Shown here in pieces: positions 33,722-41,839 of a DNA stretch of 64,000 bases. The stretch's first letter is position 1; each line of letters starts with the position of its first letter. A program made the translations under genes and the position numbers. Source of the stretch: Asaia bogorensis (lineage in GTDB: Bacteria > Pseudomonadota > Alphaproteobacteria > CACIAM-22H2); assembly GCA_945901855.1 (NCBI GenBank), contig CAMDLT010000022.1, forward strand, positions 1 through 64,000. The letters run 5' to 3'. The notes under the pieces are model-generated. The model did not search any database. It was not told the DNA's origin and saw only the letters and a list, made by a program, of their open reading frames with translations.

Positions 33722-34999
33722 ATGTCCGCCGTCGTCGATCCGGACGAGTTCCACCGTCGCCGCGCAATGGACCAGCTCGAGTGCGACCTTGCGGTGCGCA
33801 AGCACGAGCTGTTCATCAACAACCGCGCGGGCGGCCAGCGCGCCAATTTCAGCTACCGCAACCTTACCGGCCTCAATCTTGCGTGCAAGAATTTGGCGGA
33901 AGCGGATTTCACCGGCGCCATCATGGTCGAAAGCGACTTGAGCGGCAGCAATCTGCAGCGCGCAATGCTGTTCTGCGTCAACCTCACCAAAGCCAAGCTC
34001 GTGCGCGCGAACCTGACGCGCGCCGACATGCGCGGCGCCGTTCTCAAGGGCGCCGATCTCACGGCGGCCGAACTGTTCAACGCCGATCTGCGCGAAGGGG
34101 CGATCTTCACCAAGCGCCTCGCCTCCGACTTGCAGAACGTGAGCGTCGATTCCAACCCGACCGACATGTCGCGCGCGCGCATGGTCAACGCCAACCTTGC
34201 CAACGCCAACATGTCGGGCTCGGTCGCGGCGATGGCCGATTTCACCGACGCGATCTTGAAGGGTGCCAATCTTGCCAAGGCCAACCTCAAAAATGCGACG
34301 TTCGAGGGCGCGGACCTGGAAGGCGCCGATCTGTCGCGCGCCGACCTGCGCGGGGCCGTTTTGCGCAACGCCAATCTCTACGGCGCCACGCTCGTCAATG
34401 CCGACCGCACGGGCTGCGACGAGACCGGCGCACTTACCGACTTGCCGCGCGGCAAACCCATGTCGATGCTGCACGAGTCGCTTCACATCCTGGTGCGCGA
34501 CCACGGCGCTTGGATCGAAAGCGGCGGCACCAAGGGCCGCGCGCTCGACATTTCGGGCTTCGATCTGCGCGATATCGCGTGGCCCGAACATGCGCTTTTG
34601 ACCTCGCTCAAAGCCCAGGATGCGTGCATCGCGCATGGGCGTTTCGACGGCGCTTGGTTGCAGGCAAGCCTGTTCGAAGGGGCGGATCTGCGCGGCGCGC
34701 GCTTTCAAAGCGCCGATCTGCGCGGCGCCAATCTGAAGGGCGCCAATCTGGTGCGCGCGGTTTTCGACGGCTGCAATTTGGGCCCTTTGATCGTCGCGTC
34801 GGGCCGTTCGCTAATTGCGCGGTTCGACAAGGCCGTGCTGCGCCACGCGCGTTTCGAGCGCTGCCAACTGCGCAGCGCGTCGTTCCGCAGCGCCGATCTG
34901 CGCTGGCTCGCGCTGGTGGATTGCGATGCGAGCGACGCCGATTTCGAAGATTCGTTCGGCGCGCCCTTGCCTGCGGGCGCCAAAAAACCGGATGCTTGA
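33722..34999 (+). CDS. Two-domain pentapeptide-repeat protein (paralog 1)
   Basis: This 425-residue protein consists of two pentapeptide-repeat blocks (A[DN]Lxx pattern), each predicted to form a right-handed quadrilateral beta-helix, at about residues 40-240 and 315-415. Between them is a non-repeat linker (about 250-300) containing HGAWIESGG, then LDISGFDLR. The paralog at 38100-39398 has the same order and the same linker motif. No signal peptide or membrane segment is present, so it is probably cytoplasmic. Function unknown; pentapeptide proteins range from DNA mimics to scaffolds. It follows the oxidase gene by about 60 bases. Confidence 0.88.
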   Translation: MSAVVDPDEFHRRRAMDQLECDLAVRKHELFINNRAGGQRANFSYRNLTGLNLACKNLAEADFTGAIMVESDLSGSNLQRAMLFCVNLTKAKLVRANLTRADMRGAVLKGADLTAAELFNADLREGAIFTKRLASDLQNVSVDSNPTDMSRARMVNANLANANMSGSVAAMADFTDAILKGANLAKANLKNATFEGADLEGADLSRADLRGAVLRNANLYGATLVNADRTGCDETGALTDLPRGKPMSMLHESLHILVRDHGAWIESGGTKGRALDISGFDLRDIAWPEHALLTSLKAQDACIAHGRFDGAWLQASLFEGADLRGARFQSADLRGANLKGANLVRAVFDGCNLGPLIVASGRSLIARFDKAVLRHARFERCQLRSASFRSADLRWLALVDCDASDADFEDSFGAPLPAGAKKPDA

Positions 35000-37756: not shown

Positions 37757-37883
37757 GTTTCTCCAAAGTCGCCTAACTGTCTGATCTTAATGCAAGAAGA
37801 CAGTCGTGCAAAAGCGCGCTGTGCAGTTTGGCGCAGCCATGGTATAAAACGGACGTTAAAACTTTTTATTTGGGAGAATCCCG

Positions 37884-38084
37884 ATGGCTTTGACGATTTC
37901 TTCGGTTGCAGGCGAGCGCGCATTGTCGTCGTTGGCGACTGCCAACTCCGATGTCAAGCAGGCGGCGGCCGTGTCCGCCTTCAAGGCCGCCAACGAGGCA
38001 CAGTCCGCGTTGGTCGATCTGGTCGAAACCATCGCGCCGCCAGCCGAGTCCGGTCGCGGCCAGTCGCTCGACATTCAAGCCTGA
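37884..38084 (+). CDS. Small Ala-rich protein (66 aa), YjfB-like
   Basis: This 66-residue helical protein is rich in Ala, Ser and Val. Its layout (SVAGERALSSLATANSDVKQ, then AFKAANEAQSALVDLVETI) is reminiscent of the YjfB family of putative motility proteins, but similarity is weak. A GGGAG ribosome site lies seven bases before the ATG, and the start region is divergent from the DUF748 gene. It is convergent with the second pentapeptide-repeat gene. Function unknown. Confidence 0.6.
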   Translation: MALTISSVAGERALSSLATANSDVKQAAAVSAFKAANEAQSALVDLVETIAPPAESGRGQSLDIQA

Positions 38085-38099
38085 GAAAAACTAGCGGCT

Positions 38100-39398
38100 T
38101 TATCGGCCGCTCGGGTTTCCGTCGCTGAGCATACCGGTCGTGTCGGCGCGCTCGAAACTGGTTTTTTCGAGTGTCGCTTCGCGCAGATCTGCGCCCTTCA
38201 AAATCGCATCGCTGAAATCGGCATACCCAAGTTGCGCCTTGCGCAGAATGGCGCGCGACAGATCCGCGCGCCACAGTCGCGCGCGTTCGAAATTGGCCGA
38301 CATGACTTGGCCCTCGGCGCCGCCCAAACGCACCGGCTGCAGGTTGGCATCGACCAGTTTGGCATCTGCCAGAAAGGCGCGTTTGAAAGTGACGGCGCGC
38401 AAATCCGCGTCGCTCAAATCGGCGCCCGCCATGTTCGCTGCGGCGAAATCGGTCAGCACCATCAGCGCGCCGCGGAACGTCGCGCGATTGGCAACCACGT
38501 TGCGCAGCACGGCCCCGGACAGATCCTTGCCGTCGAAATTGCAGTTCGTCAGATCGAAGCCCGAAAGATCGAGCCGCTTGCCGGAGGCCCCATGCGACGT
38601 GATCCAGCGCGCATGCTCGGCCACCGCCTCGTCCAGCGAGACTTCCATTTCGCGCAATTTGACGCTGGCATTGCCCGCCCGCTCGAACGCCTTGCGCGTG
38701 TCCGCATCGAGGACAGCGCCCGTCGCATCCGCGCCGCCCAGATCCACGCCATCGAACACAGCGCCCAGCGCCACGACGCTGCGCATATTGACGCCCGACA
38801 TGTTGCAGTCGCGCAAGGCCGCGTTGCGCAGATCGGCACCGGTGAAATTTGCGTTGCGAAAATCGACGCGGTCGACCTTGGCACCCGACAGATTGGCGTC
38901 GGTCAGATCGACCTGCATGGCGATGGTGCGCGACATCGCGGCGCCCGATAGATTGACCCCCTTCATCGTCGCCGTCGCCGCGTCGACCGGCCCGCCGATG
39001 GCCGCCTCGATTTGGCCCGCAGCGCCTTGGCGTGCCAATTCGCCCTCGCGCATGTCCACTTCGCGCATGTGCGCGTCGGTAAGATCGGCCCCGCGCAGCG
39101 TGGACCCCCGCAGGTCCGCGTTCGCCAGATCCGCGCCCTGCATGCGCGCGAACCGCAAATCCGCACAAAACAGCGTAGCGCCGCAAAATCGCGTGCTGCG
39201 CGCCGAGCAGCCCTTGAGTCTGGACCCCGTCAGATCGGCGCCGCTCAGATCCAACCCGTCGAGGTCGAGCCCCGACAGATCGAAAAAAGCAAGCTTGGCG
39301 CGGCGCCCGTCGGGGTCGCGGCGCCGATACTTGGCGTTCGACGCCGCCAGATCGCGCAACGTCGTGCGGTCGATGCGCGTGAGGGCGCGGCCGCTCAT
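38100..39398 (-). CDS. Two-domain pentapeptide-repeat protein (paralog 2)
   Basis: This 432-residue protein has two pentapeptide-repeat blocks at about residues 32-235 and 300-425, separated by a linker containing HARWITSHG followed by LDLSGFDLT, the counterpart of the linker in the 33722-34999 paralog. The first block also shares an LFC[AV][DN]L step. The start at 39398 has GGAG nine bases upstream, and its ATG overlaps the stop of the decayed histidine kinase frame (ATGA). It is therefore translationally coupled to that relic. No signal peptide. Function unknown. Confidence 0.88.
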   Translation of the reverse strand: MSGRALTRIDRTTLRDLAASNAKYRRRDPDGRRAKLAFFDLSGLDLDGLDLSGADLTGSRLKGCSARSTRFCGATLFCADLRFARMQGADLANADLRGSTLRGADLTDAHMREVDMREGELARQGAAGQIEAAIGGPVDAATATMKGVNLSGAAMSRTIAMQVDLTDANLSGAKVDRVDFRNANFTGADLRNAALRDCNMSGVNMRSVVALGAVFDGVDLGGADATGAVLDADTRKAFERAGNASVKLREMEVSLDEAVAEHARWITSHGASGKRLDLSGFDLTNCNFDGKDLSGAVLRNVVANRATFRGALMVLTDFAAANMAGADLSDADLRAVTFKRAFLADAKLVDANLQPVRLGGAEGQVMSANFERARLWRADLSRAILRKAQLGYADFSDAILKGADLREATLEKTSFERADTTGMLSDGNPSGR

Positions 39399-40048
39399 GG
39401 CGATTTGCTCCAGCTGAGCGCCTGGTCGCCAAGAACGCGGCTGCGCCAGCCGGGCAACTCGACCAATTTTGTCACAATCGCCACGTCCAACCCCGTCCCT
39501 TCTTCGCCACTCGACCCGCGACGCGAATGCCAAAAAGCAACCGTACGCTTGCCGATATTGTCGAGCGCGATGGCGCATCCGTCATCCGCAACCTGTAATA
39601 TCACGCAATCGGACGCGTTGCGATAGAAACGAATGAAAACAACGCCCAAAGGATCCAAAAACTTCACTGCATTCGATACAAGATTGAGTAATAATTAGCG
39701 AAGCGCGATGCGATCTGCAAAAACAGTCACATTGACTTGGATTTACACGTCGATCCCGACGCGTTTGGGCGAGACTAAGCCTTTGATCGTCTGGAAAGAC
39801 GATTTTACAACCAAATTGATCGACATTTTTTCGTCGTTGAGTCGGAACGTGCCGACCGCAAAACGCGCCCCGTCGAGGGTGTCGGCGACGATTTTCGCCG
39901 GTTGCACGGCGCACATGCGAACGTCGCGGGCATATTCGACATAATGCGGCGCACTGAGCCGACCGAAACGCTCGGTTTCCACGATCTCGACAAAACCGGC
40001 GATCACGGGCGGCGACCGGAGATTAGAATCGTTCATCGACAGAAGCAT
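39395..40048 (-). pseudogene. Decayed sensor histidine kinase with two in-frame TAA codons
   Basis: One continuous reverse-strand frame of 218 codons shows a kinase core interrupted by TAA at 39743-39745 and 39695-39697. The first part (101 codons) follows the HisKA helix pattern (LRSPPVIAGFVEIV, ERFGRLSAPHYVEYARDV, LDGARFAVGTFRLN), but the phospho-accepting His position appears to be Ser. Between the stops is VFADRIALR, then after the second stop LLLNLVSNAVKF, a textbook N-box; the stop replaces the usual Gln. The HATPase part follows with degraded G-boxes (VADDGCAI, EGTGLDVAIV). The last codon overlaps the start of the pentapeptide gene. No upstream sensor domain is visible. Confidence 0.78.
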
Positions 40049-40099
40049 TGTCGATAATGGTGAATTATTGTTTGACGCCCATACCTCGAACGCGGCGGT

Positions 40100-41839
40100 T
40101 CAGATGGCGGCGGCATCTTCGATCTGGAACTGCACCCGATCGGCGCCGCGATAGGAATCGCGCTTCAAGCGGCCCGCCAGATGCACAGGCGCGCCGTCGC
40201 CGCGCAGCAGCAGCGCGCCGAGCGCGCCATCGACCGCGCGAAAGGCGATCGCCGCGAGCCTTGCGCCGCGCGCGTCCTGCAAAAAGCACCGCACGTGCTT
40301 TTCGCCCACGATGTCGGCCTTGGCGATGCGCACGCCCGCCAGCACGAAGCGCGGCTCGGGATTGCCCATGCCGAACGGACCGACCTTGTCGAGTTCGGCG
40401 ACAAAATCGGACGTGGCCGCCGCCAGGGGCAGAACGTCGTCGTAGTCGAGCGTGGTGCGGCGCTGCGCGGTTTCAAGATGGCGCGCAAGGTCGACTTGCA
40501 GAAACAAGCGCAGCTCGGGCAAGGCCGCGCGCGCGACGGTGAGTCCCGCCGCGTTGGCATGCCCGCCCCCGTTCACAAGCAAGCCCGCCTGGCGCGCGGC
40601 GATCGTCGCGGCGCCGATGTCCCAGCCAAAGGCCGAGCGCGCCGACCCTTTGCCGATGTCGCCGTCGAGGGCGACGACCAAGGCGGGCCGGTCGAAGCGG
40701 TCCTTGAGGCGGCTTGCAACGATGCCGATGACGCCCGGATGCCAGCCGTCGCCAGCGACAAGCGTCAAATCGCCGGTCTCGCTATCGGCCGCAGCGAGGG
40801 CCTGCGCCAGCACGTCGGCTTCGATGCGCTGGCGGTCGCGATTGTAGCCGTCGAGACGCTTGGCAAGATCGGCGGCTTCGTTGGCATCGTTGGTGGCGAG
40901 CAGCCGCACGCCAAGATCCGCCTCGCCCACGCGCCCGCCCGCATTGACGCGCGGCCCCAGCAAAAATCCCAGATGGAACGCCTGCGGCGTTTCGGCCAGC
41001 CCCGCAACGTCGGCAAGTGCCGCAAGGCCGATGCGCCCGCGCGCCGCGATCGCTTTCAGCCCCTGCGCCACGAACGCGCGGTTGAGCCCGGTCAACGGCA
41101 CAACGTCGGCAACCGTGCCGAGCGCCACGAGGTCGAGGGCTGCCAGCAGATCGGGCGTCGCGCGCCCTTGACGGCGCAGATCGCGGTTGATCGCCACGAG
41201 CAGCAAAAACGCGACCCCCACGGCCGCAAGCTGGCCGTGCGCGCTATCCTGGTCGATGCGGTTGGGATTGACGATGGCAAACGCGGGCGGCAGCAAGGCT
41301 TCGGCCGCATGGTGGTCGACCACGATCACGTCGAGCCCGGCCGCGCGCGCGGCGTCCAGCGGGGCATGCGCGGTCGTGCCGCAATCGACCGTGACGACCA
41401 CGCGCGCGCCTTCGTGCGCGAGTTTCAGCAAGGCCGGCGCGTTGGGCCCGTAGCCTTCCTTCATGCGGTCGGGGATGTAGTGGCGCACGTCGCCGCCGAG
41501 CGCCGAGAGATAGCCGTGCAAGAGGGCGGCCGAAGTCGCGCCATCGACATCGTAATCGCCGAAGATCGCGATCGGTTCCTTGGCGTCGATGGCAGCGATC
41601 AGGCGCGTCGCCGCCTTGTCCATGTCCTTCAAGTGCGAAGGATCGGGCATCGCGTCGCGAATTTTGGGATCGAGAAACGCCGCCGCGTGCTCGGCATCGA
41701 TGCCGCGCCCGGCCAGAATGCGCGCGACCGTTTCGCCGAGCCCTGCGCGCTGGGCGAGCGCCAGAGCTGCCCGCGCATCGGGCAATCGCGGCTGCCAGCG
41801 CCGTCCCAGTATCGAGCGTTCGAGCCCCTTGAAGCTCAC
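40100..41839 (-). CDS. recJ: Single-stranded-DNA-specific exonuclease RecJ
   Basis: This 579-residue 5'-3' exonuclease acts in recombination and mismatch repair. The DHH-family motifs are present: IAIFGDYDVDGATSAALL (motif I), VTVDCGTT, VVDHHAA (DHH motif), then the DHHA1 segment GGHANAAGLTV. The start is GTG, overlapping the glpX stop (GTGA). The downstream order on this strand is alaC-like, hom, glpX, recJ, an arrangement I associate with Rhodospirillales. Confidence 0.95.
   Translation of the reverse strand: MSFKGLERSILGRRWQPRLPDARAALALAQRAGLGETVARILAGRGIDAEHAAAFLDPKIRDAMPDPSHLKDMDKAATRLIAAIDAKEPIAIFGDYDVDGATSAALLHGYLSALGGDVRHYIPDRMKEGYGPNAPALLKLAHEGARVVVTVDCGTTAHAPLDAARAAGLDVIVVDHHAAEALLPPAFAIVNPNRIDQDSAHGQLAAVGVAFLLLVAINRDLRRQGRATPDLLAALDLVALGTVADVVPLTGLNRAFVAQGLKAIAARGRIGLAALADVAGLAETPQAFHLGFLLGPRVNAGGRVGEADLGVRLLATNDANEAADLAKRLDGYNRDRQRIEADVLAQALAAADSETGDLTLVAGDGWHPGVIGIVASRLKDRFDRPALVVALDGDIGKGSARSAFGWDIGAATIAARQAGLLVNGGGHANAAGLTVARAALPELRLFLQVDLARHLETAQRRTTLDYDDVLPLAAATSDFVAELDKVGPFGMGNPEPRFVLAGVRIAKADIVGEKHVRCFLQDARGARLAAIAFRAVDGALGALLLRGDGAPVHLAGRLKRDSYRGADRVQFQIEDAAAI

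Follow-up and report, generated by a model that had tools for sequence, protein, structure and literature searches.

The reading frame at positions 39395–40048 on the minus strand of the 64,000-nucleotide stretch of DNA analysed here (hereafter, the window) is, with a probability of about 93%, a unitary pseudogene: the remains of a small soluble histidine kinase that was ancestral between recJ and a pentapeptide-repeat gene (hereafter, PRP) and that decayed after selection was lifted. Decay of a histidine kinase at this place, proposed in an earlier note on the same DNA, is strongly supported by intact syntenic orthologues, a near-neutral dN/dS on the lineage, deletions, altered motifs and falling GC3. 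Bacterial unitary pseudogenes are marked by stop codons, deletions, AT drift, intact orthologues in sister species and the lack of a second copy. The relic resembles them in each of these respects, with an intact orthologue at the same locus, disabling lesions, relaxed selection and no replacement copy, and nothing of note sets it apart. The event is an ordinary gene death, unusually well framed by relatives in which the gene is whole and others in which it is erased, and it shows at good resolution a gene on the way from intact to gone. A literature search combining pentapeptide, histidine kinase and pseudogene in alphaproteobacteria returned no report of such a case.

The relic frame and its motifs

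The relic lies between two intact genes of the same strand, recJ upstream (40100–41839, minus; DHH, DHHA1 and RecJ_OB domains) and PRP downstream (38100–39398, minus; 432 aa), and its final TGA shares a four-base overlap (ATGA) with the PRP start codon. The coordinates given for it earlier are correct, and the strand, which had been left unstated, is minus. Its 218 codons form a single frame that, read from 40048 to 39395, translates as MLLSMNDSNLRSPP...GIDV, a stop, IQVNVTVFADRIALR, a second stop, and LLLNLVSNAVKF...SWSKSP up to the terminal stop. The first open piece (39743–40048, 101 aa) holds the remainder of the dimerization and histidine phosphotransfer (DHp) domain and ends in the first internal TAA (39743–39745). 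The second TAA (39695–39697) stands where kinases were expected to have a glutamine, and this residue is indeed present in all six intact orthologues. It is followed by the open HATPase_c piece (39395–39694), in which no ATG, GTG or TTG occurs before the GTG at 39667; this first possible start lies past the N-box, so that a product begun there would be without it.

In Pfam searches, HATPase_c was recovered from the second piece alone (7.2e-6) and more strongly from the read-through translation of all three pieces (9.7e-12), while HisKA gave no match in the relic translation; the profile search proposed in the earlier note was thus borne out for the ATP-binding domain only. A tblastn search with the intact 274-aa kinase from the same locus in one congener (G004) aligned residues 38–237 to the relic with E=3.8e-41 and exactly two TAA codons inside the match. 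Given this match, the homology of the relic to the kinase is independent of any motif.

Of the features of a working HisKA/HATPase_c kinase the relic retains the N-box, LLLNLVSNAVKF, and has lost the phospho-accepting histidine and the standard G1, G2 and G3 boxes. The histidine of the H-box is absent under either reading of the alignment. The suggestion that serine had replaced it stands only if the alignment is left ungapped, and the opposing residue could also be asparagine. The alignment suggests that most of about 40 N-terminal codons, together with part of the H-box, have been deleted, and the first helix is one codon shorter than in the orthologues. The G1 box reads DDGCA against DGGCG in the nearest orthologues and the G2 box GTGLDV against GTGLGL, in keeping with the degraded G-boxes described before; to these is added the complete loss of the G3 box in a frame-preserving deletion of about 63 bases. 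All indels in the relic preserve the frame. Over the whole relic GC3 is 0.64, and in its central part 0.48, compared with 0.79–0.84 for its neighbours (0.83 for recJ and 0.79 for PRP).

The same locus across the genus

The comparison set comprised ten other genomes of the genus (G001–G010), the relic itself being known from one genome of its species. recJ and PRP are present in all ten. An intact kinase lies between them in six, as a single frame in G001, G002, G004, G005 and G009 and, in G003, divided by a contig break into two halves, each at a contig end; intact orthologues upstream of pentapeptide genes, for which the earlier note had advised a search, therefore exist. The four-base overlap of kinase stop and PRP start is found in every intact operon, and the internal stops of the relic occur in no relative. 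The G004 kinase (C2:1102627–1103448) consists of HisKA (PF00512; 5.2e-10) and HATPase_c (PF02518; 1.7e-23) with little else, and carries the H-box VHDFRSP. It shares with the relic the slot, the strand, the overlap and membership in one clade. The intact kinases differ from the relic in having one uninterrupted frame, all of the H, N, G1, G2 and G3 boxes, and a background dN/dS of about 0.18.

The NCBIfam profiles nearest to the intact kinase are DivJ, PhoR and PdhS, with DivJ (NF050805) the best and PdhS (NF041593) the third-best match. The likeness is confined to the catalytic core, all scores fall far below the curated cut-offs and no recognisable sensor part is present, so the protein is not a member of the DivJ or PdhS equivalogs. 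The intact gene, encoded alongside a pentapeptide-repeat protein, probably specifies a soluble kinase core that lacks any recognisable sensor. Named database records with the same locus belong to uncultured alphaproteobacteria and bear labels such as Tagaea, Telmatospirillum, Azospirillum or Rhodospirillales.

In the remaining four congeners (G006, G007, G008 and G010), where both flanking genes are on one contig, no recognisable kinase lies between recJ and PRP, and spacers of about 150–330 bases take its place. Whole, decayed and erased states of the locus are thus all found within one genus. A search of these spacers for kinase remnants gave no convincing match. The tail of a 27-aa reading frame in G010 resembles the tail of the G002 kinase (E=0.008) but not that of nearer relatives, and was for this reason taken as chance.

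A tree of 36 kinase domains, in which 29 further members of the family accompanied the seven sequences from this locus, demonstrates a single origin: relic and intact orthologues all fall in one clade (100/100), where the relic is placed beside G002, G003 and G004 (91/86). The recJ and PRP trees place the window genome in the same way (93/95 and 94/96), and in both, kinase-bearing genomes fall on either side of the midpoint root. Because the relic and the intact copies form a single clade, the kinase is taken as ancestral to the genus and, barring its regain at this position, as lost at least three times. On that condition the losses would have occurred in G010, in the ancestor of G006, G007 and G008, and in the species of the window. 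No replacement copy was found in the window genome, whose assembly is 94% complete; the next best kinase there lies within an 896-aa frame (43%) and outside the syntenic clade.

Loss of constraint on the relic lineage

The relic is 42–43% identical to the kinases of G002, G003 and G004, which are 77–81% identical to one another; for the flanking proteins of the window genome, the corresponding identity is 84–85% (recJ) and 70–71% (PRP). Estimates of dN/dS from the kinase alignment alone had low power, with saturated branch lengths and high dS across the genus, and the result therefore rests on calibration by recJ and PRP, which on the window's lineage have dN/dS values of 0.08–0.10 and 0.16–0.20, respectively. 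With branch lengths fixed from these two genes, dN/dS on the relic lineage is 0.85 (95% 0.73–1.01) against a background of 0.18, and a lineage-specific rate is strongly preferred (2dlnL=105). The value is 0.88 (0.67–1.18) before the first stop and 0.84 (0.62–1.18) in the HATPase ORF, for which the codon set begins at relic codon 127, near the first possible start, the second TAA being codon 117. The HATPase fragment, singled out earlier for this measurement, is accordingly as unconstrained as the rest. When recJ, PRP and the kinase were fitted jointly with shared branch lengths, the kinase dN/dS was 0.71 on the window's lineage and 0.16 elsewhere; equality with the background was rejected (2dlnL 44.7) and neutrality was not (2dlnL 2.4).

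Neutral simulations of about 205 codons with 0.3–0.6 changes per site yielded 2.3–5.7 stops, and two or fewer in 6–59% of runs. The two stops observed lie within this range, so that conservation of the frame is not required to explain them. Because every indel is in frame and a wholly neutral branch of this length would on average carry slightly more stops, part of the relic branch may predate the loss of the kinase.

Together these data support a history in which the genus ancestor carried a small soluble kinase of about 264–274 aa between recJ and PRP, composed of a short N-terminal stretch, HisKA and HATPase_c with no recognisable sensor domain, its stop overlapping the PRP start. In the species of the window, the kinase was then released from selection and accumulated point changes, the two stop codons and in-frame deletions, whereas strong selection continued to act on both neighbours. 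The remnant most likely yields no working kinase, and probably neither of its pieces is made or used; it is probably en route to a short kinase-free spacer such as those of other congeners. In annotation, the two pieces should not appear as separate small proteins.

Alternative readings and the pentapeptide-repeat gene

A kinase-like protein can work without its histidine, as does DivL, which has tyrosine at this position and belongs to the same pathway as DivJ (PMC4211667), the best NCBIfam match of the intact kinase by E-value. It is nevertheless very unlikely that the relic is a working pseudokinase of this kind, which would keep its fold as a platform for docking or sensing. DivL is a complete, conserved protein whose frame is unbroken and whose H-box region and N, G1, F and G2 motifs are retained (PMC4211667). 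The relic shares the missing histidine, but two stops interrupt its frame, its first DHp helix is truncated, the G3 box is gone, G1 and G2 are altered, and its dN/dS is near-neutral. Hardly better is the prospect of two small conserved proteins divided at the stops. Both pieces contain possible starts, but the gene is a single frame in the six relatives that have it (with G003 in two parts at contig ends), both pieces evolve near-neutrally, and two conserved small proteins with the same stops, the pattern named in the earlier note as speaking against decay, were seen in no relative. Least probable of all, to the point of being negligible, is that the TAA codons are read through or recoded, for instance as glutamine, to give a whole protein. 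The position of the second TAA at a conserved glutamine would fit, but the first is not at such a site, internal stops are absent from all 32 HisKA matches of the genome, and without the phospho-histidine and G3 box the protein would be inactive even if read through.

A further proposal accepts that the kinase is dead and holds that its open frame is retained as a leader, translation of the HATPase fragment feeding the PRP start, and so setting PRP output, by termination-reinitiation at the ATGA. The observation on which it was built stands: no stop interrupts the frame between 39694 and the overlap, and every indel is in frame. Four-base overlaps are also the typical arrangement of coupled genes and, in the cases reported in PMC10666635, typically support coupling, which about 20 intervening bases almost abolish. 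The overlap here is, however, inherited from the intact operon, the number of stops is within the neutral range, and the fragment is without amino-acid constraint (although coupling alone would not need it). Ribosomes from the old kinase start would terminate at the first TAA, about 345 bases short of PRP, so that coupling would require a new start within the fragment. Among the usual start codons the fragment offers only the GTG at 39667, which no evident Shine-Dalgarno stretch precedes, and PRP in the relic locus has a GGAG nine bases before its own ATG, which leaves coupling through the fragment possible but unsupported. As PRP is also intact in four congeners without the kinase, we consider it improbable that the frame was kept for this purpose or that the fragment still drives PRP.

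On the preferred reading, that of a unitary pseudogene, PRP would now be translated from its own ribosome site. Gain of a Shine-Dalgarno sequence after kinase loss was considered and rejected, since lineages with and without the intact kinase showed no difference in the predicted anti-SD binding energy at the PRP start (p=0.65 and 1.0). As PRP is intact in five genomes (that of the relic and the four with the kinase erased), the role of its product appears to be independent of the kinase; the gene outlasts every loss of its operon partner, which argues that the protein works without the kinase.

Several features of the surrounding DNA were observed in passing. About 3–25 bases past the recJ stop is an element (window 40055–40080, minus strand) that is similar in all 11 genomes and persists where the kinase is lost; it reads TTAA-N7-TTCA in the ten congeners and TCAA-N7-TTCA in the window, and is possibly part of a promoter of the kinase–PRP unit. 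Its assignment as a CtrA box is unsupported: the patterns TTAA-N7-TTAAC and TTAA-N7-TTCAC are not enriched genome-wide relative to a reversed-pattern control, and neither box occurs within the window. Genomes of the genus contain about 7–14 pentapeptide matches each. A second pentapeptide-repeat gene is located at 33821–34951 on the plus strand, about 3–4 kb from PRP, and in congeners a similar copy lies close by but on the opposite strand (G004 C2:1094651 and G005 C8:781712 are examples). Directly after PRP is a 72-codon ORF (37856–38074, minus strand) without a Pfam match, and a similar reading frame also follows PRP in G007.
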